The notes under the pieces are model-generated. The model was given only the letters and a program-made list of their open reading frames with translations, ran no database searches and was not told where the DNA came from. Of a stretch of 64,000 nt of DNA, positions 26,048-62,751 are shown piece after piece. Made by a program: the position numbers and the translations under genes. Source of the stretch: Polytrichum commune. Lineage: Eukaryota > Streptophyta > Polytrichopsida > Polytrichales > Polytrichaceae. The stretch covers positions 41,850,001-41,914,000 of the forward strand of contig OX485806.1 in the NCBI GenBank assembly GCA_950295325.1. Reading direction: 5' to 3'. Position 1 is the stretch's first letter, and each line of letters starts with the position of its first letter.

Positions 26048-26049
26048 AT

Positions 26050-26401: not shown

Positions 26402-26524
26402 ATAAGGTCACGTTTTAACATTTTGTCCGCAGCATAAACATGATTTGTCTTGGTAGCGTTAAGCCACCTTTCAATATTGCTTCCGTGGCACAAACATGTT
26501 TTGCCTTGATAGCACAACGCCACA

Positions 26525-32360: not shown

Positions 32361-32504
32361 TTTTGGTCCTAAATGCAAACAATGAAATAAGTTTTAGAAA
32401 TCATTTTGATGAACTAAGTTTTAGAAATGTCAATAAATATTTGAAATTAAAGATTGCAAAAGTGAACATGCTTAGAAAAAGAGGATGTAGAGAAAGAATA
32501 ATAC

Positions 32505-32875
32505 ATGTAGCAACAACAATTCCAACACCAAAACCGAATCAAAGCAACAATAACAACAATAACTCCAGCAACAACATCAATAGTAGATACAGAGCCAGAA
32601 CAACAGCAACACCAGCAACAAAATAACAACACCAACAGTAGTAACTTTGCACCAACACCATGTTAAAAACAACACCAATAACAACAACAGAGAAGTAACT
32701 AAACCAGTAAGACTAACACTACTAGTAGTAGCAACAACAAAATATTAGTAACCAGACCTAGTAACACCAACAACACTAGAATTAGTAGCAACACCAGTAG
32801 CAACACATGAGCAAGAACAATACAAGAGAAACAACAATAGTAGCAACAACTACAACAACACACAAGAAGAAGGGA
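32505..32875. repeat. CAA/AAC-rich low-complexity tract
   Basis: Degenerate trinucleotide repeat (aacaacaataacaac, agtagcaacaac). It lies in the spacer between the divergent alpha genes. The open frames over it (32363-32626, 32447-32635) are composition artefacts. Confidence 0.9.
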
Positions 32876-32954
32876 AAAAGAATCCTAAGGTGTGACTTTG
32901 GTAGCTTAAGTATTGTATGATTAGGGTGGCGGTTCACCCTAAACAACTAGGGCA

Positions 32955-33019
32955 GACCCTGTGCGTTAACGCACAGGGTCTATGTGCGCAACTGGAGGCC
33001 TGGCAAAGTTGCGCACATA
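32955..33019. promoter_or_regulatory. Perfect palindrome and hairpin between divergent alpha genes
   Basis: 32955-32980 is a perfect 26-bp palindrome with arm GACCCTGTGCGTT. It is followed at once by a 13-bp arm tatgtgcgcaact (32981-32993) whose exact complement agttgcgcacata lies at 33007-33019. Degraded copies of the same words continue to about 33110 (gcgctaacgtaaagggtct, gcagaccctatgcgttaac). Position between two divergent genes suggests a shared control or protein-binding region; that role is inferred. Confidence 0.7.
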
Positions 33020-36000: not shown

Positions 36001-36238
36001 GAGCTTGAATAAGGTGACCCAAAAATACATCAAACCATCCTTGCAGTTTCAATACAAGCAAATATGCAAGGATTACAAAGACGCAAAAACAATGGACGCC
36101 GCCGACACTAAATATTATATGATTTGTTTTTGGTGGTTGTCATCCGAAGCTGCCTCGGAATAAGGCATCCTTGGCCTTTCAGAATGGTTGGTTTTTTGGC
36201 ATTTTTGTTACAGACAATGTGATGGTCATATGTTATTT

Positions 36239-36341
36239 GTAAGTACATATCAAAATTTATTATTCAATGTCATTCAATTTTTTTCCATTGTTATATATAT
36301 TATATTTTTTTTTTATCCTCATATTTTTGTATAGTTCATAG
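36239..36341 (+). other. Intron in alpha SWIM gene
   Basis: A GTAAGTACAT donor follows HMLF, and a T-rich tract ending catag precedes DLTIEEHVEMPTCN. The frame is kept (phase 0). Beta has an intron at the same codon position (52853-52992), so the intron is ancestral to both copies. Confidence 0.8.
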
Positions 36342-36689
36342 GATTTGACAATAGAAGAACATGTAGAAATGCCAACATGCAACCTTGCAGAGACTGTACA
36401 CAACAAATGGCTCCAACAGTTCGACAATAAGATGACTTGTTTATATGAAGCTATAGTGGACGACATGATCCGTGCTTTTATGCAAATTGCAAATTACCGG
36501 ACATGGTTGAAAGGGGGTCTGATGGTAAAGGTTATAATTCAAGATCCTTGAAACTCAAAGCGGCTGCCAGGTGTGGAGATCCAAAAATGTTGGCTAATGC
36601 CATGAAGTCTTACCCAGGGGCAGAAGACATCAACACTAGAGATTTTGCATTGGAAGGTGTAGTAAGTTTTTGCTCTCAGTTTAAATAAC

Positions 36690-38805
36690 CCAAAACCTAA
36701 GGGACAAACTCTCAAAGAAGGCTTAACTAGTGTCTATTACAGGCATTTGTCATATTATAGTTCATTAATTAGACAATAGGGTTGCTATCTTCATTCTAAA
36801 TTATTACTGGTATGACTTTTATTCTCCTTTTTTCTCTTGGTCTCCTCTCACTGTGTCTCATTCAGTGGGGTATGTGTGTCAGTAAGCTGTAGTTTCCATC
36901 TCGCCATGAGATTTTGTATAAGAATAGTCTTTGAGTATCACAATTGTCTTTGGTAACCATTGGCCAATGCATCTTCAAGTCAGAACAATTCCTTCATTAA
37001 TTGGTCAATGTTAATTCCAATACCAGACAATTTTTTTATTCCTTAACTCTAGATTTAATCATTACTAACACGAACATCAAGGTCAAGCTATAATCTTGAT
37101 TGCCCTGCAATCCTGTAACAACAACCAGGGTAACACACAAGACAATAGTTGATCGGGTTAGCTTGCACTTTCTATTCAAAGATCTCGTCTCTAGACTAGG
37201 TATTTATATAAAACTTTTCATAATTCTAGGATAACTTATGCTTAAATTTCATTGATAATCCAAAGTTTATCCTAATTCAAATACACTTAATCAACTTAAT
37301 CTCTCATTTCTCCTATTGATTAACCGATCAGAAGTGATTTCTCATCACTTCAATTGATTGAAGAATCCCTCATTTAACTGACTTGACACACTTAACTTCT
37401 ATCAGCCTAGCATGTTGATTTCAACAATAGTCTTATACGGCTGAACTATTTGCTCTTGCTTCTTCCTCACTTCCTCTCACAGGTCTTAACAATCGTCCAT
37501 TATGTCATTCACAAACTCTGGACCTTTAGACTTCCTCACTCTGTTCGACACAGGCTAACGATAGTCCATAGTTTTATTCACAGGCTGACACTTGGCCATT
37601 CATCTTCCTAACATTGCCTATCACAGGTCTTATCATTTCTCACGACTCTCAGGTAGCTCTCAGTTCGCCCTCTCACAAGGTTATCCTGACTATCGTTCAA
37701 CCATGCTCTTTGTATAACAATGATCTCTCTCGACGATAGTTCTACCCCCTCGATCTCTGTTTTGGGTCAACCTCCTATGCAAATAGTGCGATTTGACTCG
37801 TCACCCTTAATGCGGTTCTCGCTCAACATCTATCTCTTAAACATAATATATTTCCTCACGCAGATGATAGTTTTCTTCTGCCACAATCTTCTTCCACTCA
37901 GGTTGCTCAAATATCACTCACATTCTCATTTATCATTCCACTTTCTCATTCGCATTATTTTTATTCTTTAGTCATTGTCTCTTTGATGAAATAGATCGTT
38001 CATTCATACATTCTTTCTCTTATCCCTCAATCTTCATACCTCAAATTCTCAATTCTCATTCATTCAACTACATTCACAACTTCTCTCTTTATTAATTGCG
38101 GTCTCGATACAGACAATCATTTATCACATCCCTCTCAGCAATTCAACTTAATGTTACAGCTAACTTGGTTGTGCTTGCATTCTTGCTCTAACTCACTCAA
38201 CCAACAACTATCTATGTTCATTGTTAACCTCTTAGTCCATAGTGACCTCGACAATGGATGATAGTTTTGAATTCAACTCATCCAAATCATAAAGCAGTTC
38301 GACTCACTTTGGCCCTTCAATAACTCAAAATTCAATTAACAATATACTTCAATAGAAATCAGTGCCTGCAATCAGTGCCGTGATCCTGAATTTACGTAGA
38401 AGATAGTTTTACAATAAATCTCACATATTGGTGTGATGAGGGAGACAAACCTATAGTTTAACTATTCGCTCAAAGATAATCAAAGAATGCCTGCTTGTTT
38501 CTCCCTCGCCAGCCCTCTTAGCTCGGCGGGGGAAGACGATAGTTATTGTAACCACCTAAGGGCACCTAAACCCGTGCCTATAGTTATAACTACCTGCCAA
38601 CAGTTTAACTATGTTCATCTTCTCGGATGGACTTCATCCGAGACTCTACTATAAGCCTATACTTAAACTAATTGACCAAAAATTTGGCTCACAGAAAGTT
38701 TAGAGCTCTTTGGTTCCACCAAACCTACCACCGGGTGCTGATTGTGACTCTCATCGACCCGACAAAGTGAACTATTTCATTCCTCGTCCCAACACCTGAG
38801 CAACT
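36690..38805. other. 2.1-kb non-coding interruption of alpha SWIM gene
   Basis: It lies between the codons for DFALEGV and the codons for SKWHIVRL, which are only about 200 codons apart in beta. It is T/C-rich and has no coding capacity. The word GATAGTT and near variants (gacgatagttat, gatgatagtttt, tatagtttaactatt) recur at least eight times between 37720 and 38610. No clean terminal repeats or target duplication are visible. It may be an intron, an LTR-like insert or another non-autonomous element. Confidence 0.5.
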
Positions 38806-40009
38806 TGTCAACGCATAGAGGAATCGTTGAGTTCTGTAATTCATGGTATGGTTTATACTACATCCATGTTAGAATCTATTTGTCTTGCTTCCAAGTGGCA
38901 CATTGTAAGATTACCACCCAACTCAGCCAAACGATGTTGGACACTGCACGCCATTACAGGGACTATGTGCAATGCCAAAGTCGGGACTGGGAAACATGGC
39001 ACACCTGCTTCAATATACAAAGGGCTCAGGAAGGAATTTTGCTCTCCCAACAATGTGGAGTATGAATTTTGGTTTTGCCCTGATGATATCAAACGTTGTG
39101 TGAGTGGCAGTAAGAAGAAATATGTATTGGATTGGCTTATAGTACCCAACACGTGGCCGGTGAAGATAGATACCAATCTATCGATAGAGGAGATTTTGGC
39201 ACTTGAAGATGTTGGATTTCAACTAAAGCAGAAGGAGGCATTGTCCCCCCGTCGTAGGCTTTCAACAATCACAATTCTCCCTATCCCTTGCTTGCATTTT
39301 TGTATGCCACCAAACCTGGACGCCCACCCTACATTCAAGTTTGGGAAAACAATGCGTCGCAATCCCACAGCACCGCAATCCCACAGCACCGCAGGCGGAT
39401 CACAAAACAAATGGGAGAGCGCCGGACTCATGCAAGGTTACTATGTGATTGGGGTCACTGCCATTCCATATCCGGGCTTTGGAGTGATAATCAACATTGT
39501 CTCCAAGTAGGATATCACATATCATGTCACAATTGGCGACATCCCACATTGCACATGCCCGGATTTCACTAAAATATCCTCTTATGCATTGGGAAATAAA
39601 AGAAAATGGGTGTATTGTAAACATTTTTATTATGTGTTAAGATTTTTGTGCAAGGTGGATTACAAGAGTGACAAATTCATTCATGCACCTACATATACCT
39701 ATAATGAGGTCATGCAACTACTTGAACTTGCTGGTATTGTGGAATGTGAGTAGTATTGCAAGTGTTTTATTAAGCAACATATATTTGAATGTCAATAAAT
39801 GACATGTTTTTGTTTGGATTATTATAATAAAAATAAGCTAGGGATTGAAAGTATTTCAAATAATCCATGGTAATACGTTTCCTTCCTTCTTATTTCATTT
39901 AAAATCTTTACAATTGAAAATATTCAGTTCATGTAGTACTATATTTAGTTCATGAAACCTAAACCCATGCACCTTTACTAATTTTGAATTCATTACTCAT
40001 GTGTTACCG

Positions 40010-40099
40010 CTCATTGCGCATGTGTTAGCGCTCATTACTCATGTCATACTGCTCACTGCTCATTGCTCATTGCTCATCGCTCATAAGATAGCTTCCATC
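40010..40099. repeat. Right terminal repeat of element alpha
   Basis: Tandem gctcatt/gctcact words end in gctcataagatagcttccatc. Beta's right end has gctcaccgctcaccgctcg and then gctcacacggtagcgtcgttg at its border. The shared form is repeated (c)gctca(c/t) and a final (g)tagc plus seven bases. This defines the alpha border at about 40099. Confidence 0.65.
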
Positions 40100-40711
40100 G
40101 GAAGATACTCGGTTACTTGAAGGAGTTATTTTGTCATTTGAAGAAAGGTTGCTTGATCCTAGATTCATGGTTATTTGGTAAATTAAAGAGAAAGTAATTG
40201 ATACTTGAAAAAATGCTACTTGGTCACTTGAAGAAAAGATGGCTTGTTACAAGCCACTTAGCAACCCGGCATATTAAAGAAAAGTTATCTAGTACTTGAA
40301 GAAAGGCCACTTGGTTAATTGAAAAAAAATACGTACAACTTGAAACACTTAGAAAGAAGAGGAAACAACTACGGTACATGAAGAAGTTTGATACAAAATG
40401 AAACTTACAAACAAATAAGTTTATAGATTAGAAGCAACATAATGCGTTGAAGAAATATCATCAAGAGAAGAAGTTCATTACAACAAATAAGGATTTTTTT
40501 AAAGTTATACTTAGAAAACCATCATGATGAATACAAGGTAGAGGAGTTTTCAAAAGACGAACGATCTACCAACACAATAGGGAAAACAACCAAGAGAAAA
40601 ACCACAAATCACAAGGATGATAGGTAGGGTAATCATCATAATCTAGACAAGGCTCTAAGTCACTACGATAAGGTCAACACTAACAACAAGTGGAGGTAAT
40701 TGAGCTCTAGA
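40100..40711 (+). mobile_element. Repeat X copy 3, right part
   Basis: It resumes the X sequence (actcggttacttgaagg, gaaaggttgcttgatcc) and runs to its 3' terminus tgagctctaga. A Y LTR has been inserted exactly at this terminus. Confidence 0.82.
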
Positions 40712-41686
40712 TGTTGCGCACCTCTCCATGAAGAGTGCTTGAAACACCATGGGCACAAAGGGGACCCCAGAGTGACACCCGAGACTTGTGGCGCCGTTGG
40801 TGAGAGGGCCCAAGTGATCCTAGTGTGGGTGAGGGCCCCGGGCGTTGGAAACGCCTCCCTCCCACGGAAACTGGAAGGCACAAGGGTAAGGCCATGAGCT
40901 ATGTGTAGCTTATGGCGTGTAAATTCTAGAGTGCTCAAGAACACCTCAATCAGAGGTGTGAGCTAATAGATATGCCAATTTGAGTGGGGCGCTGTCCCAG
41001 GACAACGCCCTGGTACAGCAGTGGCCTGGGAGTGGCTCCTGGGACTGCCAAGGTTTGAACAGGCATAACTTCCTCAATACTTGTCTGAATGGGGCAAGTG
41101 AGGAGTCTATCGGCATCTATGTGAAGCGTAGATGAAGATGAAGTGGTTGCTTGTTCATGTCAAAGATCACATTAGGAAGTTATAATGATCTGAAGCTACT
41201 AGGGGCTTTGAGGCCCAACGGCTAAGGGAAAATGTCTACTTGGCCCCAACTCTTGGTAGAGAAACAAAAGGTTTTTTGACGGTAGGGTAGGGGCCCCGAC
41301 TAGAATGCTAGAGGCTTATATGGGTGAGGTGGTGTGGCCTCACCCACTCGAGGCCGAATGACATGGCCTCCAAGGGCATTGGCCCAATGTGAGGCCATAG
41401 TTGCCTAGTACGCTTCGGGTTGTTGGAGTGTTGCTCCGGCAACGCGATGATCAACATAAGATTGGACTTTCATGGATGGAAATCCACATCTAAGAATTGG
41501 TTACCAATTAAGGGGTGAATCACGAAAGCAAAGTAGAAGGGTTAGTTCCCCTCTTATGAATTATAAGGTCCAAGGTAGGAGGAGCTAATCATTAGCATGG
41601 CGGAATGCGAAGGCTTAGCGCTCGTGACCTTTGCTAGAAATAAAAATGGTCAATATAGTTAAGGGGAGCTAGCGAGGGTTGCGACA
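40712..41686 (+). mobile_element. Solo LTR, family Y, intact reference copy with TSD
   Basis: The 975-bp LTR runs TGTTGCGCACCTCTCC to GAGGGTTGCGACA and is flanked by the exact 5-bp repeat ctaga (40707-40711, 41687-41691). It is the best copy for defining the family. It lies at the last bases of repeat X. The minus-strand frame at 40663-40944 is an LTR shadow. Confidence 0.95.
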
Positions 41687-41691
41687 CTAGA

Positions 41692-42850
41692 GTTGGAGGT
41701 AATGTGTGATGATTGTTGTGTGGGTTATGTTTTTCAAGGGATGACAGTGATATATATTTGGATAAGCCTTAAGATTTTGGTTGCAAATTCTTGAGGTGGT
41801 GATTATCTTAGTAAGTTGCTCATGAAATGTGTTGGAATTTGCATGTTTCTTTTTCAAAATTCAAATTTTTGGCTATATACGCGAAATGGCCAATATTCTT
41901 CTACAAACAAAAAAATTATATATGTCCATAATATGCATTCATACGTGTGGTTTGGTATTTTTTTAACGTGTTTTTACATTTTTAATGTCCTCAGGCAATT
42001 GTTTTGGTATCTTTGAAATTGAAGTGGAATTGTCATTGCAATATTCTTGGAAGTAAGAATAATGTTTGGTGTGATTGTTGATAATGGCCATGAGCGTTGA
42101 TTTAGATTAATGTCCTCTATTAAATTATTAATATTCCTTACTTATTTTGATTTGAATCTAGATGTTTTAACAAATTTCAATCTCAATTGTCTTCACTCTT
42201 GATGTAAGGTTTATTAATTTTGAAAAAATTAAAGGATACAAATTTTTGGATGCGTATCAATATCTTAAAGCGTATACATATGATATCAAGTTAAGTTACT
42301 ATGATATTTTTTTATCAACTATTGACAACAAAATATCTCTCCAAGGTCTTGATTAAATTTTCCAAAGAAGGTCAAACTTTTGGTTTGTTCTATAATTCTC
42401 CATAAAAACATAAACGTCAAATCATTCATATAGATATTTTTATGAATACACATAAACAATTATTGATATCAATAGAATAGTATGTAAGCTATCCTAATAC
42501 CAAATTGTTTTCTTTATAAATTATGGTAGTAATATTAAAAAATATTTAAATATTAATATTTTGCATGTTTTTTTTCTTCTTCTTTGAAGTCAAGTATTAA
42601 CACTTGAGATATTAATGCAATTCTTATAAGTGCATGTGATAATTAACATAATCGTAAATATTAGTTATCATACTTAAGAATTTAACATTAATCTCATTCA
42701 CAATACATGTCAAGTTATAGTTTTGTATTGATCAATTTTCAACATTATTTTTCAATCATAAGTATTATTTCTTTGAAAAATATAATATATTTTCTCTAAA
42801 TTATTCACATTATCAATATGGATTGATGTTTAATTCAACATCATTTTATT
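41692..42850. other. AT-rich gene-free stretch
   Basis: About 70 percent A+T by eye, with no supported coding sequence. The frame at 41816-42016 has no domain and an amino-acid bias typical of AT-rich DNA. Confidence 0.5.
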
Positions 42851-43161
42851 CACATTGGCCCAATGTGAGGCCATAGTTGCCTAGTACGCTTCGGGTTGTT
42901 GGAGTGTTGCTCCGGCAACGCGATGATCAACATAAGATTGGACTTCCATGGATGAAAGTCCACATCTAAGAATTGGTTACCAATTAAGTGGTGAGTCCCG
43001 AAAGCAAAGTAGGAGGGTTGGTTCCCCTCTTCTGAATTATAAGGTCCGGGGTAGGACGAATTAACCATTAGCATGGCGGAATGCGAAGGGTTAGCGCTCG
43101 TAACCTTTGCTAGAAAGGAAAATGGGCAAGATTGTTAAAGGGGCTAGCAAGGGTTGCAACA
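42851..43161 (+). mobile_element. Partial LTR Y (3' third)
   Basis: It starts at ttggcccaatgtgaggccatag and runs to gcaagggttgcaaca, the Y 3' terminus. It is closely similar to 41385-41686 (for example tagtacgcttcgggttgttggagtg in both), so the two may derive from a recent common source. Confidence 0.88.
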
Positions 43162-44410: not shown

Positions 44411-44421
44411 TGTCGCGACCC
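44411..44421. repeat. Left 11-bp direct repeat (TSD) of element beta
   Basis: TGTCGCGACCC here is identical to 55002-55012. The target was the end of a Y LTR. MULE-type elements are known to make 8-11 bp duplications. Because the sequence is also a Y terminus, an independent origin from a second Y end cannot be fully excluded. Confidence 0.75.
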
Positions 44422-44475
44422 AGGAATGCTACGATGTGAGCGGTGAGCGGTGAACAGATCTCGTGAGCAGAAAAT
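44422..44475. repeat. Left terminal inverted repeat of beta
   Basis: It pairs with 54948-55001. The shared core is GCTAC(g/c)(a/g)TGTGAGCGGTG, then gtgagcgg-type words and GTGAGCAGAAAA. The six outermost bases (aggaat) do not pair perfectly with the right end (caacgac reversed). The inner parts contain short tandem repeats of ggtgagc. Confidence 0.82.
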
Positions 44476-46118
44476 GTTAGTTTAAAACTCTATTGTTGGA
44501 AAGTTAGGACCCTTATAACCGTGGATTTTGCACATATTCCAAGCTTGATTTTGAATGTTTTGAGAGTTATGGACTCTATTACCGTGGAAATAGGCCAACA
44601 TTTCCCTATTCATAAAGTTAATAGATTATTGAACCATAGAAATATTTTAATAAAATACAAAATTAGGGCTTACATCACTATGACGTCAAAATTACAATTA
44701 CCAAACTTGTGAACTATAGTTTATATTACGGTATATTAAATAATATTTACTATTTGAAGGAAACACGAAGGAGGTTGGCGTAAAAAAATTCTCCACATAC
44801 AGTCCACCCTCTATTAATGTTACACCTCTAAGTGTTAACCATTTCTAAATGTTAAACGTGTTAATTGTTAACAAAATGGTGTTCCCTTTTTTGTAAATTT
44901 GACTCTATAAATGTTAACGAATGAAATACATTCATACTTCACCCATGATTTGTAAACTTGATATTGAAAAAAAATTTGATTGGGTTTGCAATTTTGTGAA
45001 TGGTATTCTCTCACAAGTAATGTTCACAATTGCTTATAGTTAGAACATGTTAAGATTTGTATATTGCTCAAAGATGTAATTTTATAATTGTTAACTATTA
45101 ACACCTTTATAAATTTTAACTTTGATCCACTCTCGAGGGTTAATATTTATAGAGGGTGAACATTTGAGGGTTAACATTATAGAGGGTGAACAAAAATGAA
45201 GAATGCAATGCGGGTAGTATGAATTGGAGTGTGTTGGGTGGTATGCAACAAGTATTATTGAATACTTATGATTCAATGAAACAAGGAGGAGGTGTGTGAG
45301 GCAACAACTTTTTATTGGAATGGGTGGATGCTACATTGTTTTGTGAGTAGCGGTTAAGACTGTGAGAAGATGGTGGACTAAATTCTCTTTGGAGTATGAC
45401 GACCACCACGTGTAGTGTGATTTGAGAACAACGAAAACTTGCATTCAATGAGACAATTGGAATATTGAAAACCACATCACACTTTATTAATCCAAATACC
45501 GACCAATCAAACCAAAAACCAATCAAACCAAAATTCAATCAACCATGAGGTTGTCACTACTAGATTCCCTACTTCCAAAGATACTACCCTCATGGCCGCC
45601 CTCATCGGAAGTGGAATCTAAGCTATGGCACTCATTCTCCACCTCCGCAGAATGGTCGAAAAAATCTAAAGCACGGGGGTCATAACGTGGAGATGGGTAC
45701 TAGCTTCGGTAGGAGAAGGTTGTGCCACTAGTACCATCGCCATATCATGGGCATAGATAGGCAATGTGAATCCCATGGTGGGAGTACCCAACACATCCGC
45801 TCCAACACCAAGTCTGAAAATAAGCACGAAAATTGTAAGAAAGAGGATGGAAAGTGTAAAAGCTGAATGGACAAGGAAAATAAGCGAAGAAGGTCATCAT
45901 ACTCACTTACTGCGAGGGCTCTGGCCTCGATCGCTTCAAGGCCGGCTGCCTCTTCTGCGTGCCTTGTGAAGCCTGCGTGGAAGCAACAACAATGGATGGA
46001 GCCTTCACCGCAGGCTTAACACTCTTAAGTGGCTTAAGGACACGGTTGAAGGTGTCCTCATCCTCCTCAAGAGCAACGATATGGCACCCAAGCTGCCTGC
46101 ATGCATGGATAGAAGTCC

Positions 46119-46207
46119 CTGTTGCGGAGGAAATCTTAGCAAAGGGAAAGAAAAAAAAACTTAGAAATTGAAAATTAGGATATGATGGCAAGTGAAGTAG
46201 GACATAC
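46119..46207 (-). other. 89-bp intron inside methyltransferase motif I (beta)
   Basis: The donor GTATGT follows GTTG (codons ...VGV-G) and the acceptor gcaacag precedes GGACTTCT. Joining gives VGVGTSIHACR in frame, matching the continuous STGSFILATRA motif of alpha. The alternative acceptor gctaag at 46135 would put the next exon out of frame. Confidence 0.75.
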
Positions 46208-47525
46208 CAACGCCTACATTAACGTCCACCACAACCTGTCCAATGTCTGTAGTGGCCATTATCAAGGAGGACATGAAAGAAATATCTTTCTCCCGGGGAC
46301 CACGCCAAGCTTTGGAGCCGTCCATGAGAGGAGTTGCGGTATAATTCATAATCGCATCATCCATGTCGAGCTCAATGCCAAGAGCCTTGGCGAAATGACG
46401 AGTGCCGGGGCCGCTTATCAAGGTCGGATCCAATTGTTTTCGTGGCACGAACAAGTAGTACAACCTGGAAGAGGTTGGTGGTCTTGTCCTTATGCTTAGC
46501 TGAATGTAGGCAAAGACGGTTGACTCCCAGCCACTCCTTGAAGATCGTGAACCCAAAAGGAACGAAGTGGTCTTCAATGCTCTCCCTGAAGTCACCATTG
46601 TCATCCGGATGAAAGAGGAGGAGAGCTCCATCGTCATGTAGGATCTCATCCGCGAAATCGAAGAGCTCACCTAGAAAATCGGTATCCAAAGCATTCCAGG
46701 AAGGTACACTATAGGAAGGATCGGAGACATTGGGTACGGGCAGGTTCTCCGGGATGTCGGCAATGACAAGATGAGCCATGCCCACATATGACCTCGCAAC
46801 GCCTAGAGCTCTCTTAGGATGGGAGGGTGGAAGAGAAAGAATGAAGTTTGAAACCTCTTGAAAATGACGACGTTGATGGATAATGGAGGCATTCAACATG
46901 AATTCTAAAACAACGGGAGGACGCCTAGCAGATGAAGGAATGGGCCGAGGAGGCAGCCTGGATAGAGTAGGAATTTGACTAAAAGTTGGAGTAGATGCAA
47001 CTGCCGCCTCATGTGAAGCCGGGGGATCATCCTCCACAGTCTTGAGCTTCCTCGCGCGCTTCTTTAGTGATGACTCGTCTTGAGTCGCATGCTTCCTCCT
47101 CTTGGACTTCTGAGTGTTGGGCTCATCGAGAGTCGCAACAACCTCATCCACCTCCTGAAGCTGACTCTCTAGAAGAACAACCTCATCGCTTTGAGAAGGT
47201 GGCTCTCCACCGGAGAGCCGAATCTTCAAGGCCGCCTCCTCATCCGGCTGCCACGTCCTCTTACACTCCAAGTACCAGCAACACTCGCGGAGATGCGGGA
47301 GGGAGAAGTTGCGCTTTTAGCCGGCGAAAAAATGAAGGTGGGCGAAGAGGAATCCGACCATGCATCTAGAAAGGGAGGAAGCTTCTTCAAAGCCTTCTTC
47401 TTGAAAAACTCGTGCTTGATGTACCTTCACAACCAAGGAGTGAGGCCTATAAGAAACTTAGAAAACAAAGAGTATGATATAAATGAGAACAAAAGATGTC
47501 TCAACTAACTTACCGGAAAATCAAG

Positions 47526-49560
47526 CGCTTGACACCCATAGAGCTTTGATAGCCAAAAAAAAAGGTTTAAGAATTTCTGGATTGAGAGACCTAGGGGCTG
47601 TCGGTTCCGACAACGCCCCTAGGCCCTCCAACCAGACCTCACAAACAACACACCTAATCTCTAAACTCATATTCAGACCCCATAAAATGATGCAATATTC
47701 ATTAACCAAACAAGTAACTAGCTTCCTGGACCCATTTCGGACCCCTTAAATGAACCAACATTCATTAACCAAACAAGTAACTAGCTTCCTGGACCCATTA
47801 CAAACCCGTTAAAATGAACCAACATTCATAAACCAAACAAGTAACTAACTTCCTGGGCCCATTTCAGACCCCTTAAAAAAAATGAACCAACATTCATTAA
47901 GCAAACATGTAACTAGCTTCCTGGACCCATTTCAGACCCCTTAAATGAACCAATATTCATGAACCAAACATGTAACTAGCTTCTTGGGCCTATTTCAGAC
48001 CCGTTAAAATGAACCAACATTCATTGACCAAACATGTAACTAGCTTCCTGGGCCCATTTCAGACCCCTTAAATATGAACCAACATTCATTAACCAACCAT
48101 GTAACTAGCTTCTTGGGCCCATTTCAGACCCCTTAAAAATGAACCAACATTCATTAAGCAAACATGTAACTAGCTTCCTGGACCCATTTCAGACCCCTTA
48201 AATGAACCAACATTCATTAACCAAACATGCAACTAGCTACCTGGAGTCATTTCAGACCCTTTAAATGAACCAACATTCATGAACCAAACATGTAACTAGC
48301 TTCTTGGGCCTATTTCAAACCCCTTAAAAATGAACCAACATTCATTAAGCAAACATGTAACTAGCTTCCTGGACCCATTTCAGACCCCTTAAATGAACCA
48401 ATATTCATTAACCAAACAAGTAATTAGCTTCCTAGACCTATTTAGACCCCTTAAATTGATCCAACATTCATTAACCAAACATGTAACTAGCACCCTTGAC
48501 CCATTTCAGACCCCTTAAAATGAACCAACATAGCATTCATGGACCCCATTTCTGACCCTCTAGACACACCCATAGAGCTTTGATAGCATAAAAAAATGGT
48601 TAGAGAATTTGTGGATTGAGAGCCCCAGGGCTGTCGGATCCGACAACGCCCCTAGGCCCTCCAACCAGACCTCACAAAAGCACACCTCATCTCTAAACTC
48701 ATATGCAGACCCCTCATATTGATCCAACATTCATTAACCAAACATGTAACTAGCTTCTTGGGCCCATTTCAAACCCCTTAACGTGAACCAACATTCACTA
48801 ACCAAACAAGTAACTAGCATCCTGGACCCATTACAGACCCCTCAAAATGAACCAACATAGCATTCCTGAACCCCATTTCAGACCCTCTAGACACACCCAT
48901 AGAGCTTTGATAGCAAAAACAAAATGGTTTGAGAATTTCTGGTTTGAGAGACGCAGGGGCTGTTGGATCCAACAACGCCCCTAGGCCCTCCAACCAGACC
49001 TAACAAAATCACACCTAATCTCTAAACTCATATTCAAACCCCTTAAAAATGAACCAACATTCATCAACCAAACATGTAACTAGCTTCTTGAGCCCATTTC
49101 AGACCCCATAAAATGATCCAATATTCATTAACCAAACAAGTAATTAGCTTCCTGGACCTATTTCAGACCCCTTAAAATGAACCAACATTCATTAACCAAC
49201 CATGTAATTAGCTTCTTGGGCCCATTTCAGACCCCTTAAATTGATCCAACATTCATTAAACAAACATGCAACTAGCACACTGGACTCATTTCAGACCCCT
49301 TAAAATTGTCCAACATTCATTAACCAAACATGTAACTAGCACCCTGGATCCATTTCAAACCCCTTAAAATTGTCCAACATTCATTAACCAAACATGTAAC
49401 TAGCACCCTGGACCCATTACAGACCCCTAAAAATGAACCAACATAACATTCATGGACCCCATTTCCGACCTCTAGACACACCCATAAAGCTTTGATAGCA
49501 GAAGATAGCTTTAGATAGCCTATAAGCAACTTAGAGAACAAATAGTTTGATGTAAATGAG
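47526..49560. repeat. ~63-bp minisatellite with higher-order structure inside the methyltransferase gene
   Basis: About 30 units of aaccaacattcattaacc...aacatgtaactagcttcctggacccatttcagacccc are present. They are grouped by a longer interspersed block (gaccctctagacacacccatagagctttgatag...aacgcccctaggccctccaaccagacctcac) near 47520-47660, 48535-48680, 48870-49020 and 49450-49500. The array lies in an intron between methyltransferase exons. About 70 bp containing an exon end and splice donor (ctaacttacc.aaaatcaagcgcttgac) are present on both sides (47455-47525 and 49535-49605), so the array arrived with or caused a duplication. Confidence 0.9.
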
Positions 49561-51559
49561 AACAAAAGATGTCCCAACTAACTTACCAAAAAATCAAGCG
49601 CTTGACAATGTTGTCAGCGCCTTTGACATCCTTCCACAACGTCCCTTTTCCATAGATATCTGACCCTGAAAAATGACCAATGAACGCCTTATCCCAAAGG
49701 CAAATTCGCCACTTCTCCAAGTAATCAGGCAACGAATCAACTTCCACGTCTCCGTCAAGCCCACCCAATGCACTAAGTATATCCGGTAACTCCTTGACCG
49801 CAACATCCTCTAGCTGTGAAAAAATTCAAGGCGAACATGAGAATTGGCACAAAATGAAGAATTGAAAGGTAAGTAAAGAAAAAATGATAGACGTACCCCT
49901 GCCCAGAACGTTGCTTTATTGAGTCAAGATGTCCTCGCTTGCAGGACTTTTGGGAAACCGGATAGCTTCACGATTGAAACTTCCACTGTTCCACCACTTA
50001 AGCCAACGGATTTTATACTCTGGCTCGACAGCGGCAGTGGCAATGAGTTGCAATTTCTCCAATGTCATCTCAATCTTTTGAGAATGGTGGACGCTATAAT
50101 GCCTAGTAATCTGAAACAAATGCAATCAAAATAGAAGGCCAAGTAAATTCGAGAATGTTTTCTGAAAAAATGCTGCAAAGAATGCAAGCAATACGAAAAG
50201 TATAATTCCAAATGGGATGACAAGGAAATTACCTCCTTTAGGAACTGTTTTCCAATGGCAGGGTTTGCGATCGATTGTTGTTTGTTGAACTTGTGCCCAA
50301 GTTCCTCAGTCGTCTTCTTAATCACAGAGTCCAATACATCACTCAACCCCTTCCATGACTACTCATCTAGAGGCACTTCCTCCTTGTAGATTTGGGCTGC
50401 CTCATCTACTGCATCACCTATCTCTTGCTGAACATATATTCTAAATTGTTAGATTATGACTAAAAGCAATGAAAACGAAATAAAGGTTAAAGAATTTGGG
50501 TTTAGGGGCTTACATTGAAAATGAAGGACACCATAAGATCCTAGGTCAGCGGGTACCAAGGGAGCTTGGGGCCTCTGCTCTTGTACAATTGGAATTGCTC
50601 CTCGGTCAATAATGGCTGGTAGTAGCTAAGATCATACGAACCGTATTTTTGGATGCGGTGTAGAGTGTGAACAAGGCTAGTTTTAACGTGCGCGGTTTGG
50701 TTAGCCTTGTTGCGGTTGACACAAATGCCATTAGATGCAAATTAAAAAATAAAGAAAACAACGAATTGAAAAACCATCATACTCACTTGTTGATGTCGTG
50801 CATTGCGTTAAGGACGTCCCCACGCCCACCCGTTATGTCCAAGATGACACATTCGGGGCAACCATGCTTCTCGTACCAGAGTGCATCGTCCTTGTGATCT
50901 GTTTCAATACACTCCTTCCATGCTAGCAAGCGGTGGTTACCATCATACACAAAGAACATACATCCACTGAGGCTCATCAAGTCCTTATCCGCGCGCAAAA
51001 AAGACTCAAACTTATCATTTTCTGCATTCCAAAACTCTCCCCATTCACTTTTGTCTTTGCCAGAAATGAATCGATTCTCTCCACTCTCATTTGCAGTAGA
51101 CACATACAAAGTGGCAGACCCAGCACGGTATCCAAATTGAAATGCCGCCATTAGTTTTTAACGTCGCTTCGGAGCGTTGGGCGAACCAATGGCATGTGAA
51201 CCAGCGTGCAGAGGGGGATTCTCATAGAGGACTTTTCGGCCGGTTGTATTTTCATGCCCTCAACAACTGAAAAGCTATCTTTCTTTAAATTATGGCGAAT
51301 GCAATACTCCATTGCACGGACACCCACATCCAACTCTGGAGGTGAACCACCTAGTGGCATGACGGGTGTCTGCGGTTCGCTACTTCATGGTGCAAGACTA
51401 GTGTTTTCAGCACATGACAACGGAGACTCTTGCTCCCTATGCTCTTCAACACTAACCCCAACATCCAATGACTCTCCATCCGCACCCATCTCAACGATCT
51501 GCAGATTAGCAATTATTTGCAAACATTAGAAGCAGTCAATTGAACACCCTTATAGAGGA

Positions 51560-51660
51560 CCCATTAAGCAAAACATCCACCACACAATGAACCAACATAA
51601 CATTCCTGGACCCCATTTCAGACCCTCTAGACACACCCACAGACCTTTGATAGAAGGAAA
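51560..51660. repeat. Stray unit of the 63-bp minisatellite at the SWIM gene start
   Basis: aatgaaccaacataacattcctggaccccatttcagaccctctagacacacccacagacctttgatag matches the array block at 48850-48910 almost exactly. It replaces the 5' region that alpha's SWIM gene has, so beta's apparent start codon at 51587 lies in repeat DNA and is unlikely to be the original start. Confidence 0.85.
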
Positions 51661-54400
51661 AAAATGGTGTACCGCCTCACCCTTCACCGCAGATGTTGAT
51701 CCCCCAGCTGGGTCATCTCTCGTTTGTAAGGTCTGTAAGACACCACCCTACTGTCTTGATACTTGCCAACCCAAGATGTACTATGTTCTTGGCAAAGGTG
51801 ATATGACCCGTGCATGCATCCATATGGGTCATCACCATCACCCCGTTTCGCAAGGTGTCTGTAGAGAGTCTAAGGTTGAAATTCATGATCTCATTGGTAG
51901 GGAAGTTGAGAGGACTCCCACCGCCACCAACTCTGCCATTGCATTGGCTGTAAGTAAAGAGTTCTTGGCCAAGTACCTTCTATGCACGGGATCTGAGCCC
52001 AATAAGGTTATGGACCTCGAGTCCATGAAGTTTGTCATGGACAGGTACCAACACCTCAACACCCCGAGTATTCGAAACACGGTCACTTCCTTCAAGCGCA
52101 TTGGGCAAGGGGGGATCATTGACAGCATCACCGGACTCAGAGGTCATAGCAGTTGGTCCTATGTGCAAGAAAACAAATTCCCAGGCCAGGGAAAGCTGTT
52201 GGAGAAAGTCTACGTGTTCAAGATGTCCGAGGTGGGCCCTGGGTCTGGAGTTGACCTTGTCATGAGAATGCAACCACACGGTGACTTGCACGATGCTTGG
52301 GTCATGTTCGACCATGTCAAGCGTGTCAAGGGGTGGACAACCATGGCTTGTCATGTCTATGACTTGGCCTACTGCCGAGTTATGACTATTGCAGTATGTG
52401 ATATGCAGTCTGAGGATGTCACGGCGCAGAGCCTTCTTTGGCATGGGCTCAATGAAGTTATGGACAGACATGGCATTGCTAAAGTTAACTTCAAAGGGTT
52501 CATGGCGGACAGTGCACAAGCCAATTGGAATGCAGTTAGGATTATCTATGCAAGTGGTGATCCCAAGGTTCCTATGGAGTCTCGCGAGAGGACATGTCTA
52601 TTGCACTGGACAGTGTCTATGGAGCGCCACACCGCCACCCACATCAAGCCCGACCTCCAACAACAACACAAGTTGTTATGCAAGCAGTACAAAGATGCCA
52701 AGACTCCCGAGCAGTCCGAGTCCTGTTATCTTGCCATCCGGGCTTGGTGGCTTTCATCCGGAGCTGCATCCAAGGAAGGAATCAGGGACCTTGATACATG
52801 GCTTGCATTCTGGCACTTTCGTTACCGTCAATGGGGTGGTTTCATGCAACTAGTGAGTATACCATCCACTTTCTGCTTTGTTTTTTTATGTCAATTTTTT
52901 TTTGGTTTTTTTTGGTGTTTTTGCTATCATATTGGGCTTTTACCCATATTTTGTGCAAAGCGTACTCACTATATTTCATTGACTTCTCTCAGAATTTCAC
53001 AGATTTTGAGTTCGCAGAGATGCCATCTTGCAACCTCTCTGAGACAGTCCATAACAAATGGCTTCAGCAGTCTGGAAACCGTGGCTATGATCTATATGTT
53101 GCGACCGTGGATGATTTCGTGAGGGCGTTCATGCAATGTATGAACTACTACGCCTACTTGAAGGGTGATCCCTCTGGTACTGGCCCAGGAAAATAAGAAC
53201 TCCGCCTTCGTGCTGCACAACGATCCGGTGACGCCAAGAGAATTGTTGCAGCCCTCGAGCACATGCCTGGAGCAGAGCATTGGTGCACCCGCAAACCCCA
53301 ACTCGAAGGAGAGGAGGTCTTTGGCACCGCCAAGCGCAAACTTGATATGTCCCCTGGTTCTGATCAGGATTCACATAGACCTGACAAGGTCAGCTTCTCT
53401 CATCCACGAGTGAACACTAGGTCAACTAAGGCACATACCGATTCTGCCACACCATCAGACCAGCCCCTAACACAATCACTGGAGAAATCGATTCCACAAC
53501 GGGTCACCCACGTCAATAACATTCAGGAGACCCACTGCGATGTCTCCAAGTGGCACATTTCTAGACTGCCCAAGACTTCCGCCAAGGCCTGCTTTGCCAT
53601 GCAAGCTCACACAAAGACCAAGTGCACCCAGAAGATCGTTCGGCATGGTAAAAATACTCCAGCCCCTACGTACGCTGGCTACATGCGCGACTACAAGAAG
53701 AACAAGGAATTCTTGACACAGTTCTTCTTCTGCAACGACGACATTGAGAGATGTGTCAAAGGCACTAGGAGGAAGTGGGTGCAGCATCGTCCGGATGTCC
53801 CGGACGTCTGGCGTCCTCATTGGGACAAACCTCACTCTTCAGGAGGTTCTGGCCCTTGAAGAAGCGGGATTCCAACTTCAACAGCGTGAAGATGTGTCAC
53901 CCAGAAGACTCTTCAGTGACTCCTCCAATGTTGCCTCATCCATGGCCGAACTCCCTACCCCGGCCCAAGCCGATCAATACCCTACTCTCAAGTTTGGAAA
54001 GAAGATTCGGCGCAGCAACAACGGACCATGCGTCCAACAACGCAACAAGTGGGAGTCCGCCCTCAACGTGGACGGACAAATCACCTCCGTCACAATGATA
54101 CCCCACCCAGGGATCGGGTGCATCATTCTCTTCCAGTCTCGGAAGTAGGCTAAGATTGAGGAGTACCGTATCACTATCAGCACCTTCCCATCTTGTACAT
54201 GCCCGGATTTCGTGGAGATGTCAGCAAGAGCACTTGGGAAGCGGCGCACTTGGGTAAACTGCAAGCACTTGTACTTCATTTTTCGTGTTACCTGCAACTT
54301 GGACCAATACCAAGAAACTTTCATCCATGCTCCGAGCCTTAGTTTCAATGAAGTGAAGCACCTCCTCGAAAGTGGCATCATGAAGCATGTGGGACCTTAG
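51587..54400 (+). pseudogene. SWIM zinc-finger, MULE-like transposase gene, beta copy
   Basis: Real homology begins near 51690 (CKVCKTPPY Cys pair, RACIHMGHHHHP). The core has VMFDHVKRVKGWTTMACHVYD (52300), AVCDMQSEDVT (52395), NFKGFMADSAQANWNAVR (52488), ERTCLLHW, WWLSSGAASKEG and LAFWHFRYRQWGGFMQ, then an intron, MPSCNLSETVHNKWLQQ, KWHISRLPKTSAKAC, EVLALEEAGFQL and a SWIM finger CTCPDF...WVNCKHLYFIF (54195-54280). The acidic residues in MFDH, CDMQSED and ADSAQ are candidates for the DDE-type site; this is inferred. Breaks: TAA at 53194-53196, a one-base shift near 53810, and TAG at 54146-54148. The last also occurs at the same codon in alpha. The true N-terminus is missing. The best surviving copy of the pair. 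Confidence 0.85.
52853..52992 (+). other. Intron in beta SWIM gene
   Basis: The donor GTGAGTATAC follows GGFMQL, and the pyrimidine-rich acceptor gacttctctcag precedes NFTDFEFAEMPSCN. Length 140 bp, phase 0. It is at the same position as alpha's intron. Reading through it gives an artificial 511-residue frame from 51587 to 53122. Confidence 0.88.
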
Positions 54401-54947
54401 CGTGGATCCCTAGAGGAGCTAGGCTGCCCCCCCCCCCTTATTTATAAGTTCACGCTAAGTATTTTCTATTGCGTTGAGTATACCATAGTACGAGTTCGCT
54501 CTGAAAATATCATTGATATATCAGGCCTATCATTATCTACACGATTTGAATTGTATTCGTTTATAAATATTTATAAAGGTTTATAAATATTTATGGGTCT
54601 CTTCTTCCAACGGTAGTTTTAGATGTTATTGAATGGTACGAGTCTTGCTACTTTGCTTGAATGCTTGAATCTTATGACTTAGAGTTTTCTCTCACGTTGT
54701 GACCTTAGCCTATGATTAAGCGGTTGTTACCATAATATGGATAGTCAAAAGTTTCCTGGTTTGATTAGATCATGTGAACTAGTCGCTCTGAAAGGAACCC
54801 TATAACCAAGTCTCTGTCCTTAAAGCCCCCAAAATTTGCACGGAAATAGGTCTAGCTTTTTTACTAAAAAAAAATGTCCCACGATTTTCTCTATTTTAAA
54901 TTCCAAATTTAGAAATTATATTCATATAATTGGAAAGTGTTGATTTT
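54401..54947. other. 3' region of the beta SWIM gene
   Basis: No further gene. A poly-C run (54430-54438) and a ttataaatatttataaagg repeat (54560-54595) are seen. It leads into the right terminal repeat. Confidence 0.5.
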
Positions 54948-55001
54948 TTTCTGCTCACCGCTCACCGCTCGCGTCCCACCGCTCACACGGTAGCGTCGTT
55001 G
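54948..55001. repeat. Right terminal inverted repeat of beta
   Basis: It reads ttttctgctcaccgctcacc...gctcacacggtagcgtcgttg, the inverse of 44422-44475. The direct repeat TGTCGCGACCC follows immediately at 55002-55012. Confidence 0.82.
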
Positions 55002-55648
55002 TGTCGCGACCCTTGCTAATTTTCTTTAACTTAGCTTGACCACCTCCCAACTCTAGCAAGTGCCACGAACGCTAACCTGCACATTCCATGCACATACATG
55101 GTTAGCTCCCAATACCGCGGACCTTCAAGCTCATAGCTTGGTGACCAAACACTCCTACACATGCATTCGGGACTCCCCCCTTAGTAGGTAGCCAATGGCT
55201 AAGGTGGACTTCCCTCCATGGAGGTTCATTCTTGAGTTGATCATTGTGTTGCCAAAATAACACTACAACTATCCAGAGCAAATTGTTAAGTATGCTCCGG
55301 GGGGGGGGCGGTCAGCTAAGCCACCTCACTCATATAAGCATCGAGGACTTTGTGAGGGGCCCCTATTCAACCGTCAAATACCCTTTTGTTTCTCTACAAC
55401 GATTGGGGCCAACTAGACATTTTCCCTTAGTCGCTGGGGCTAAAACCCCCCAGCAGCTTCAGACCATCATAACTTCTACATATGATGTAAGATACTATCA
55501 AGCAATCATTCTATTGCCATCTATTCTTTACATAGATGCCGATAAACCCCTCATTTGCGCAAGTATTGAGGAAGTTATGGCTGTTCAAACCTAGGCAGTC
55601 CCGGGCGCCACTCCCAGGCCAGTGTTGTCCCAAGACAACACCTATCAA
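55002..55648 (-). mobile_element. Partial LTR Y (reverse)
   Basis: It starts TGTCGCGACCCTTGC and follows reversed Y to the ccaggccagtgttgtcccaagacaac block, then stops. The 5' part of the LTR is missing. Its first 11 bases are the right-hand direct repeat of element beta, so beta inserted at the very end of this LTR. It has a G8 run near 55301. Confidence 0.85.
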
Positions 55649-59512: not shown

Positions 59513-62500
59513 TCATTCAACGTGGGTTGCTTCTTCTGCGATCCGAGCAAGGTTGTCTTTTGCAAAAGTTATGTACTTTTGAGGGATGGACACTGATCCA
59601 CTATGATTTTTCCGTGGTTTCCATGCTATGAATATGGAATCTGTATCTACCCAAGATGGACCGTGCTCAGAATCCACCTTCCACCGAAAGTTAGGGTTTG
59701 TATCCCAGCCTGTATAATGCCGAATCACATCTTCATTCCTTGCCGTCGGTCGGTAGTACTCCACTTGTATTTGTCGAAAATGAGGGCTGGAAGTTACAAA
59801 ATTGGGTTTGGACAAAGCTCTTGCCACCCACACTGGCTTCACATATGTCTCGTCTCCAGGACGCAAAATGAGCATATATCCTTCATGACAATCCACTGCA
59901 ATGCGGAAAGATGGTGGCGGACGACTACTAGCAGGCCCCACGTAATGGTCGTCCACATCAAACTCCTCTCGAACCTCTCCATTTCCCAAAAGACTAGCCT
60001 TTGAAGCTTGTACATCGACTCGTGTTTGTGGCCAAAATCCATGCCTCAAAGTATGAGGGCTATCTTGGTGGAGGTCTACCAAGGCGGCACGAACACGTGT
60101 CCAATAATGTATCCAACTCCCATAACGATGCCAACATGATCCGCCAACATCCGCTATCTTCAAACTCTCCCAATATTGTATGAAGCCTGATATACCTTTC
60201 AAAATATCCTCCAAATTCTTCATGGCTATTGGCTTACAAGGGCTAGGCTCCCCATCCGGTAACATGGTCTTCCCATCCGCATCCACGCGCCACACAAGAA
60301 GACCCTCCGGCGGGCTCCAGTCTTGTGTCGTGCACAACAACTTGTATTGCATGGCCGGGACACCATCGTCACGCATGTAGAACCGGAATTGTTGTGCCTT
60401 CGTATGCCCGATCAATTGGTGAGCTCCACTTCGAATATAAGGTTCTATAAATGCCTTGAAGTCTGGCACCTCCTCAATCATATGGGGGATGACGGGAACG
60501 TTCTCCAAATCCATGTACGACTTCATCAATAATGGGATTGTAGGAAAATCCTCCTCCCGCAACTTCATGCTCCACCGCCCAAAAGATGCATCAATATCAT
60601 CGTGCGTGTGGCCTACCAATAGGAAGGACACAAAAACCTCCTTGAAAATGCCTTTCGCAACCAACAACGACCAATATGCAAATACATATCTGCTTTTATT
60701 GTCCTTGGCACAATTGTCCAATTGGACACGCAAAGTTGGAGGCAACTTCTTGGCAATCACGGGTTCATTGGGTGGCTCGGGCAACGAATGCAAGCATACA
60801 TCTTTTCCATCCAACACCACTTCATATAAAGGTGTTGAACCCGTGTTCTCAAATAACAATCCTGAAGAATAGGCTGGTGGTTTCTCTAAATCACGTAAAA
60901 GCCTTGCAAATGATCCTATCGTGTGGTTTGAATCCGCTGGATACAAATCAAGAGCATAATGAGCAAACTTGACATCACCGTGTCCATGTGCAATCATTCC
61001 TGCAATGCCAACCCAACGTGATTAGCATCTATGTATGAATAAACCATTATGAAGGAATCCATGTTCTCCAGTACATCACGGAATAAAAAACCACAACATT
61101 TAGGGTATGTCATGACATTGTTTCGAAGTTCACCTGTAACCGATACAGGCAACTTAAAAAACCCATCCGTGGCCTTGATTCGATTTGCAAAACATGGGGA
61201 GGCTGTTTTGGCATGGTCCATTTTGTCATGGATGACCGTAAGAACCTCTAAGGGCCTGGAGATGGACAAAGCTCTATTTGTGTAGTAATCATTACGGTGT
61301 GCCTCTTGCATGTTTACGTGCTTGAAATAGTTCAATTGATGCGCTGCATATGACTCGGTACCCATCGTGTGTGCATCCCGGTGGCGCTTCAACTTCTCGC
61401 AATTAGAGCACCTGGCAAATTTGTCCCCTCGTCTTTTTGTAATGTATTCGCTAAAGTTTTGTTTCTTGATTGCACTTAATTTTGACAATGAAATTGGCTC
61501 CAACCCAATCTTCTCGCCAACTGCATTAACGTCCAACAATATGTCTTTCCATTTTGTGCCTGTGGGAAGAACTTTCTCCACAACCTTTTCACCGGTTGTG
61601 AGTGTGCGTGTTTTGTGCGGCATTGCATCAGCAAGGGGGACAATGATGGTTGCTAGAGTTGCCGTTGCTTGCCTTGTTGCTTCCCTAGGTTTCTTTAAAC
61701 CCACGTTCCCATGGTGACGGGACCGGCGGCCTTCCTTGGCATAAGCAGCTTGTCTATAGAAGTCCGCCTTCGACACACCGTAAATGGTGTACCATGCCTT
61801 ACAACACACGTCTATGCTTTCAATGGTGATTACCTTGCGACCCGTCCCATTCACATGTATTGCCCTATGGACATCAAGTTTTTTTGTGGATCTTAGACGA
61901 AAATCTCCAAGCCACATTTCTTCACGGATGGCCTTCAATTTATCCCTTGGAAACAATTGGCAACAACAATGCACACAACAATCCTTTGTGGCAACTTCTC
62001 TTATGGACTCCTCCCCAAGCAGCCTTTGACGTTTACAATCAGTTGCAGATGGAGAAGGACGTGCCACAGTATCGTACTTTCTTTGACCCTTGCGTGGCCG
62101 CATGTTTGATTGCATTTCCTTTTCGAGTTGCATGTGTCGTTGCTCATGTTCACGCAAGCTAACTCCATCAGTCGTGACATTCCTCAATGGCCACCTGCGG
62201 AGGGAGAACCTATGAGTGGGATCCACCTCAGAAGAAACGAGTGACTCCAATATGACAATCCCAACGTCCTCGGTGCCAAGCAGATTTTGATCAATGCAAT
62301 CTTGTGGATGGGTGTTACGACAGATACCCTCCGCCACAACAACCCCATTGTCATTAAGAAGTAACACATCCAAATTCACCCATGAAGCTCTTGAAAGCAC
62401 GGCACACTCTGGAATGGGACAGTATATGTATATGGAACGCGAAGGTATATCGAAATGCTCTTCATCTGAACTCTCATCCATAGTAGCCTCCCCGACAATG

Positions 62501-62640
62501 TCTAGCTCTTCCTCAGATGCAGATGGCCAAGTGGCCATGTCTTCTCCAGACGAATACCCTCTTCCAGTATACCCATCCATTTTGCCTACACACATGAACA
62601 TGGAACCTTGTAAAGAATTGACAAAAGCTATAGGGTCCAA
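59513..62640 (-). CDS. DUF7869-family transposon protein, copy 2, two exons, apparently intact
   Basis: Exon 1 (62640-61134) and exon 2 (60999-59513) join across a 134-bp intron (61000-61133) into one 997-residue frame; the junction gives PVSVT-GMIAHGHGD. Visible parts: an acidic Ser-rich N-terminus; a Cys cluster CCVHCCCQLFPRDK (~residue 215); CSNCEKLKRHRD (~405); the HDKMDHAKT block; and in exon 2 the family hallmarks VQLDNCAKDNKSRYVFAYW and LLVGHTHDDIDASFGRWS (~630-690). The start at 62640 (MDPIAFVNSLQG) is the first Met; the decayed paralogue aligns from GSMF onwards. DUF7869 proteins are common, repeat-like and of unknown function; a nuclease/transposase role is my inference from the conserved D/H/N motifs and from the mobile setting. 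A palindrome array lies 110 bp upstream. Confidence 0.85.
61000..61133 (-). other. Intron of the DUF7869 gene copy 2
   Basis: Donor: GTTACAG|GTGAACTTCG. Acceptor: TTGGCATTGCAG|GAATG. Removing it fuses two frames that otherwise overlap by ATGA. The paralogous decayed copy has matching sequence at about 22280-22405 with its own acceptor-like cccttag, which supports an ancestral intron. Confidence 0.88.
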
Positions 62641-62751
62641 TAGAAAAACACAGAAACCTTATCAATTTCGATATCCAGAAAATACTCAACAATTTGTTGT
62701 ATGAATATTATATCGATGGGTTCCAAAAAGATGGAGCGCACAACAGTTTAT

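Follow-up and report, generated by a model that had tools for sequence, protein, structure and literature searches.

Mutator-like elements (MULEs) are flanked by target-site duplications of 8-11 bp and may carry extra open reading frames or domains, including mudrB, SET and Ovarian Tumour Gene (MULE survey PMC6446971, partial text). In the present study, we analyzed a 64-kb stretch of the genome of the moss Polytrichum commune (C4:41850001-41914000; the window), and on balance we favor the reading that the element at 44422-55001 belongs, as a decayed copy, to a large group of MULE-like two-gene transposons whose accessory protein would act on the element's own DNA. The combination of a transposase with a second protein resembles that of MuDR, a two-gene MULE with mudrA and mudrB; the function of mudrB is unknown (PMC6446971, partial text), whereas the second protein of the moss element contains a methyltransferase-derived domain. 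The VANDAL elements are also MULE-type transposons with an extra gene, and their noncoding tandem arrays vary between relatives, as in the moss element. To our knowledge, the extra protein of these elements, VANC, is not related to methyltransferases, and an anti-silencing role in the moss element is proposed by analogy. VANC is the Arabidopsis anti-silencing protein of VANDAL elements, and it often targets tandem repeats that differ from one related element to another (PMC5735166, partial text).

Elements that carry a DNA methyltransferase have been described as DNMT- or Dam-bearing retrotransposons (dinoflagellate, charophyte and DIRS elements), with hundreds of copies in Symbiodinium (PMC5890265, partial text). 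The enzymes of these retrotransposons are of the C5 or Dam-like kind, whereas the moss element is a DNA transposon whose domain is permuted, of the beta class and altered in its catalytic motif; the same text also remarks on DNMT-carrying DNA transposons in marine viruses. The phage and bacterial ParB-methyltransferases (PF02195 plus PF01555) share the apparent domain order and the methyltransferase homology with the moss protein, but the identity is about 24%, DPPY is present in six of the seven aligned phage and database proteins (DLPF in the other one), and ParB homology in the moss protein is unconfirmed. The bdelloid N4CMT is likewise an amino-methyltransferase of a bacterial kind in a eukaryote; it is, however, a host gene with SPPY and a chromodomain that acts on transposons (PMC8885841, partial text), whereas the moss gene is located inside a transposon. 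The word methyltransferase did not occur in the main text of the MULE survey (PMC6446971), and no MULE with a ParB-methyltransferase was found among the titles and abstract openings listed from open-licence PMC papers (the first 8-20 per search). Methyltransferase-bearing retrotransposons and MULEs with an anti-silencing gene were already known; the moss DNA transposon group would combine both.

The initial annotation of the window described a 10,580-bp unit with inverted ends and an 11-bp direct repeat, which was borne out when the ends were read from the sequence. The target-site duplication TGTCGCGACCC was exact on both sides (left copy at 44411-44421, right copy at 55002-55012), and the inverted ends were imperfect, with 26 nt at 88% and 34 nt at 79% complementarity. 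A motif scan of the window revealed heptamer arrays at both ends, namely GAGCGGT x2 at 44438-44451 (plus strand) and GAGCGGT GAGCGGT GAGCAGA at 54950-54970 (minus strand); five of the nine GAGCGG/CCGCTC sites of the whole window were located within 60 bp of the ends of this element. Its left end was common to copies at C1:21.036 Mb and C1:39.858 Mb. The two divergent genes of the initial annotation were present on opposite strands, but both were decayed. The ParB-like/methyltransferase gene, which has an intact counterpart in the related element K, was mapped to 45538-51489 (minus strand) by tblastn with the K protein. The same comparison placed exon 1 with the ParB-like region (VYDGNHRLLAW) at 50786-51489, with a frame change near 51158, a methyltransferase exon with the motif IV variant ADIPEN at 46390-47316, and a methyltransferase exon with the motif X region (AWRGPREKD) and the start of motif I at 46179-46388, all on the minus strand. 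An intron at 47535-49517 was filled with a 63-64-bp tandem array, and copies C and D had none at the same place. Transposase remnants with a C-terminal SWIM-like CxC...CxH were identified at 51668-54388 (plus strand) by alignment to the K transposase. Compared with the intact relative, the ParB-like/methyltransferase gene was broken by several in-frame stops and frame changes and the transposase by two stops and frame changes; no counterpart of transposase residues ~1-350 was found in the window copy. Because both genes were broken, the window copy is a fossil, and the working parts were to be read in other copies.

To characterize the relatives, the genome of 408 Mb was searched, comprising 64 contigs, seven of them chromosome-sized (42-78 Mb). 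The left-end search yielded at least 48 matches, and short second pieces were dropped before counting (8 of 48 left-end rows, 6 of 150 methyltransferase rows and 1 of 41 right-end rows). The neighborhoods of twelve copies (A-K and M) were compared, and C, D, G, H, J, K and M formed one young group with I as a relative (93% over 3.4 kb); A and B had only the left ~1.2 kb and ~1.9 kb, respectively, in common with the window element, together with a 185-bp inner piece in B. Read by eye, the ends of C, D, G, H, K and M were GGGGAAAGTTAGTATG... and the inverse of GGACGAGACTTGTATG..., with exact 10-bp flanking duplications in all six, and duplications of 9 bp and 10 bp flanked E and F. Thus, duplications of 9-11 bp were present in nine of nine elements with both ends read, the 11 bp of the window element included. 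C, D, G, H and M showed 99.6-99.9% identity to K over the left 5.2-kb and right 4.5-kb pieces, and this near identity indicated recent amplification of the group. In K (L043+L044), the only copy for which splicing was worked out, the left gene consisted of 8 exons with GT-AG introns and encoded 1096 aa with no stop, and the transposase had 2 exons and a frame without a stop. Terminal heptamer arrays were present at both ends of K too. A 171-bp tandem array was located between its two genes, and the internal arrays differed between subfamilies, that of the window element being intronic with units of 63-64 bp.

The association of the two genes was then evaluated on protein-match lists that comprised 150 scored of 776-1904 candidates each, so that the copy numbers are lower bounds. 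Both ends were paired at 22 places. At 21 of these, including K, the ParB-like region, the methyltransferase and the transposase were all matched, with order and orientation conserved; these are matches rather than proven intact genes. Two of the 21 elements spanned 26 and 32 kb. The expectation of the initial annotation that other copies would share both genes, matching ends and duplications was therefore upheld. A divergent ParB/methyltransferase-family match lay no more than 20 kb upstream of 92 of the 150 scored transposase matches (103 for a limit of 40 kb), compared with 3 (9) in a strand-flipped control and a mean of 1.3 (2.6) with a maximum of 4 (7) in 200 random trials. In the first ParB list, 53 of 150 ParB matches had a divergent transposase within 20 kb, against a random mean of 0.6. 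The number of ParB-like places in the genome was at least 274 or at least 295, depending on which of two pairs of lists was merged. Eighteen of 40 right ends had no left end among the matches listed, and 12 of these 18 had a divergent upstream methyltransferase match of a more divergent (E-type) subfamily, in a count that used 72 of the 150 rows, some of them picked for nearness to transposases. It was also observed that transposases mostly 86-98% identical to that of K were paired with different ParB-methyltransferase subfamilies (K-like, L060-like and E-type), which suggests module exchange between elements.

Judged from its sequence, the C-terminal domain of the second protein is homologous to beta-class N6A/N4C methyltransferases. 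The K domain matched PF01555 with an E value of 2.1e-5 (25.0 bits, just under the gathering score of 26.7), so that the Pfam profiling suggested by the initial annotation recovered the methyltransferase family at the margin and gave no ParB match; the DpnA and CcrM chains were matched with E values of 8e-4 to 2e-3. A phage search with the domain returned 108 records to E 1, seven of which covered at least 80% of it. A protein of Aeromonas phage LPM4 annotated as an adenine-specific methyltransferase matched with E 2e-4 over 94% of the domain, and one of the seven proteins (E 7e-3, 94% of the domain) was annotated as a 'ParB-like partition protein'; the latter matched N6_N4_Mtase strongly and ParB_N with E 3.7e-5, slightly below the gathering score. 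Another ParB_N-methyltransferase, of Streptococcus phage Javan575 (L052:922-3033), was apparently split by an intein, with Intein_splicing and Hint_2 below their gathering scores. Alignment with the phage enzymes indicated that motif IV precedes motif I, which is the permuted, beta-class order.

The catalytic motif was altered. In place of [DSN]PP[YFW], the aromatic residue was replaced by an acidic one, and the DPPY position read D[LI]P[ED] (DLPE, DIPE or DIPD) in all 12 distinct genomic sequences readable there. These were the K-like group (C, D, G, H, J, K and M agree and were counted once), I, the window element, L047, L048 and all seven of L053-L059; the count leaves out a second, decayed element of the window. 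A database search with the domain returned 55 proteins to E 10, mostly ENA/JGI proteins, at up to 95% identity. AD[LI]P was found in 31 of them, as DIPEN (20), DLPEN (5), DLPDG (2), DIPKN (2), DIPEY (1) and DLPEG (1), so that the following residue was E or D in 29 and K in 2. The other 24 were partial, varied (VDLPEG, DISEN, NIPEN) or, in the case of P0175, bacterial-type with DPPY; one bacterial-type enzyme was recovered, at E 1.4. KC19_5G032000 of Ceratodon purpureus was found by this search at 39% identity (E 1.9e-23), and this relative matched PF01555 with E 1.9e-5, just under the gathering score. Its annotation in a second moss agrees with the designation of the element as a plant one. 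The motifs on the S-adenosylmethionine (SAM) side appeared to be retained, with DINAGVG...ALEED in K and similar stretches in L047 and L048. The acidic residues kept in the domain are those expected for SAM binding. No homologue of the whole 1096-aa protein was found at E 1e-3 among 7994 scored candidates with lengths of 0.55-1.75x the query, and an AlphaFold model of the methyltransferase exon with 29 sequences was unusable (predicted local distance difference test score, pLDDT, 36.0). In summary, the permuted N4/N6 methyltransferase of the initial annotation was retained as to homology and motif order, and the replacement of DPPY/SPPY by D[LI]P[ED] left a working N6A/N4C enzyme unsupported, making ordinary adenine or cytosine methylation doubtful.

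The N-terminal part of the protein precedes the methyltransferase domain as the ParB domain does in phage ParB-methylases, and its first exon contained the motif MFFV-x-[DE]GNHR..AW in the K-like copies, the window element, L047, L048 and L060-L063. The assignment of this region to ParB is likely, given the GNHR motif and the domain order.

The membership of the element in the MULE superfamily was assessed on several features. The target-site duplications described above fall within the 8-11 bp of MULEs, and terminal inverted repeats were present, although imperfect (about 26-34 nt) and with heptamer arrays. No Pfam match to a MULE DDE profile was found to E 1 with 1196 residues of the K transposase or to E 10 with the K core, and the D, D and CxxH positions were recognized by eye only. 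SWIM (PF04434) was matched with E 0.042 in the window copy and E 0.011 in K, both under the gathering score, and a search of the PDB with the transposase returned nothing to E 1. The duplications and inverted ends fit the MULE-like assignment of the initial annotation, and strict membership in the superfamily is tentative. Two transposase matches (C3:13620523-13621161 and C3:58494821-58495459) fell within open frames 2390 and 2527 residues long, far longer than the other frames listed, possibly reflecting a fused or larger element.

To evaluate selection, the ratio of nonsynonymous to synonymous substitutions (dN/dS) was estimated by the Nei-Gojobori method; in the other pairs on the list, the synonymous sites were either saturated or unchanged. 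For the methyltransferase domain, dN/dS was 0.198 (K/I), 0.21 (K/window) and 0.218 (L053/L054), with rough values of 0.134 (L055/L057) and 0.077 (L053/L059). The ParB-like region gave 0.109 (K/window), 0.312 (L062/L063), 0.51 (K/C, with few changes) and, roughly, 0.366 (L048/L061). The synonymous distances of the three rough pairs were 1.6-3.0. Purifying selection thus appears to have acted on both domains during diversification of the elements. Together with the co-occurrence data, these results supported the conclusion that the second gene recurs under selection as a component of a two-gene MULE-like transposon, divergent subfamilies included.

The window contained a second element (29300-40082) with the same gene arrangement as that at 44422-55001, older and more diverged. 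A decayed ParB-like/methyltransferase gene was detected at 29300-32151 (minus strand; tblastn with the K protein, 25-29% identity), with a decayed transposase divergent from it at 34086-39741 (plus strand) and a right-end heptamer array of five GAGCRRT units at 40048-40082 (minus strand). Its ParB-like motif was MFFIWDGNHK, with GNHK for GNHR, and by eye its motif IV stretch read stop-YPDG. No convincing duplication was found at the left end, which appears to be lost. The second element was flanked by long inverted repeats (25602-27086 and 40711-43115; up to 284 nt at 88%) that were 14-16 kb apart and looked like another repeat family. Elsewhere in the window, two long overlapping open frames of 502 and 554 aa were located at 59516-62658 (minus strand).

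Based on these results, a full element of the group would consist of a transposase with a SWIM-like C-terminus and a divergent accessory gene. The accessory protein would comprise the ParB-like region and the permuted beta-class methyltransferase-derived domain, joined by a middle part in which a basic, nuclear-localization-like stretch was recognized by eye. We propose that it recognizes noncoding DNA of the element, the candidate sites being the terminal heptamer arrays or the internal tandem arrays, and that it may help mobilization or, by analogy with VANC, escape from silencing. Because D[LI]P[ED] stands where DPPY would be expected, it is predicted to work mainly by binding DNA (and perhaps SAM) or through a changed chemistry, ordinary N6A/N4C methylation being the less likely mode. 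Among the possible roles, anti-silencing or regulatory binding was ranked first, followed by ParB-like nicking or transposition and then by ordinary methylation. A more specific scenario is possible but distinctly tentative, in which an ancient moss two-gene group captured a prokaryotic or phage ParB-methyltransferase, and the fixed D[LI]P[ED] made it a DNA-marking, SAM-dependent or nicking protein that would recognize the element's own arrays and control silencing or transposition.

Several observations weigh against the two-gene reading. The genes were incomplete in two shorter elements with duplications, E (3.3 kb), which had a piece of the methyltransferase, and F (8.3 kb), which had residues 1-617 of the transposase. 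No partner was present among the matches listed within 40 kb of 47 of the 150 scored transposase matches, and the same 72 of 150 rows gave no upstream methyltransferase match for 6 of the 18 right ends that lacked a left end in the list; these partnerless cases, in lists that give lower bounds, indicated that transposase-only relatives may exist. The single methyltransferase exons of L047 and L048 had no Pfam methyltransferase match, and for one exon of L048 an NCBIfam DNA methyltransferase model gave E 0.01, far under the cut-off. For the ParB-like domain of the initial annotation, the GNHR motif and the domain order stood, but the searches for ParB were negative. No Pfam or NCBIfam ParB match was found for the window, K or L047/L048 proteins. 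A phage tblastn search with the ParB-like part gave no ParB match: its six records to E 10, of which the best had E 0.1, were tail, head or hypothetical proteins by annotation or carried none. When the ParB-like exons were aligned to phage ParB-methylases by hhalign, no significant match resulted, and an AlphaFold model of the window ParB exon alone was unusable (pLDDT 38.5).

The same ParB-like region could instead make the protein a transposition factor, nicking or handling DNA at the ends as in bacterial ParB-methylases, with the methyltransferase fold serving only as a guide. The conservation of GNHR in all of the sequences listed above, with GNHK in the decayed second element, speaks for this idea, and a precedent for ParB-like nicking exists in Bce_0392 (PMC5512222, partial text). 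In addition, mudrB, a second MULE protein of unknown function, is apparently needed for integration (PMC6446971, partial text). However, neither the phage search nor the profile-profile comparison nor the structure prediction confirmed the ParB fold, and because many MULEs have one gene only (PMC6446971, partial text), a partner protein is not generally needed. We therefore regard a transposition factor as rather improbable.

An active DNA methyltransferase that writes N6-methyladenine or N4-methylcytosine on the element, with the acidic motif IV tolerated or the target base held otherwise, seems unlikely. The domain order and the SAM-site motifs appear to be retained in K, L047 and L048, purifying selection is in keeping with it, and a DLP variant (ADLPF) was present in the LPM4 phage protein annotated as an adenine-specific methyltransferase; N4CMT also illustrates a captured bacterial amino-methyltransferase that works in a eukaryote (PMC8885841, partial text). 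Nevertheless, the aromatic residue of [DSN]PP[YFW] was acidic in 12 of 12 genomic sequences and 29 of 31 database proteins, and changing SPPY to APPA in N4CMT killed its activity (PMC8885841, partial text). Finally, it is very improbable that the second gene is a functionless passenger taken up by a MULE from the host or a foreign source: MULEs tend to pick up host gene fragments (PMC6446971, partial text), but here the gene, its divergent placement and its motifs are kept across divergent subfamilies with low dN/dS, many exon matches have no stop, and the low dN/dS and the co-occurrence with the transposase led us to disfavor this explanation.

Collectively, the results suggest that the two-gene element uses a borrowed, altered enzyme to manage its own DNA. 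The near-identical complete copies suggest recent activity, which makes direct testing possible. With hundreds of second-gene copies and an altered motif under selection, the moss group would be a natural system for asking whether and how a prokaryotic DNA-modification enzyme becomes a transposon tool against host silencing, and it would also let one ask how an enzyme of this kind functions once the catalytic motif has been altered.

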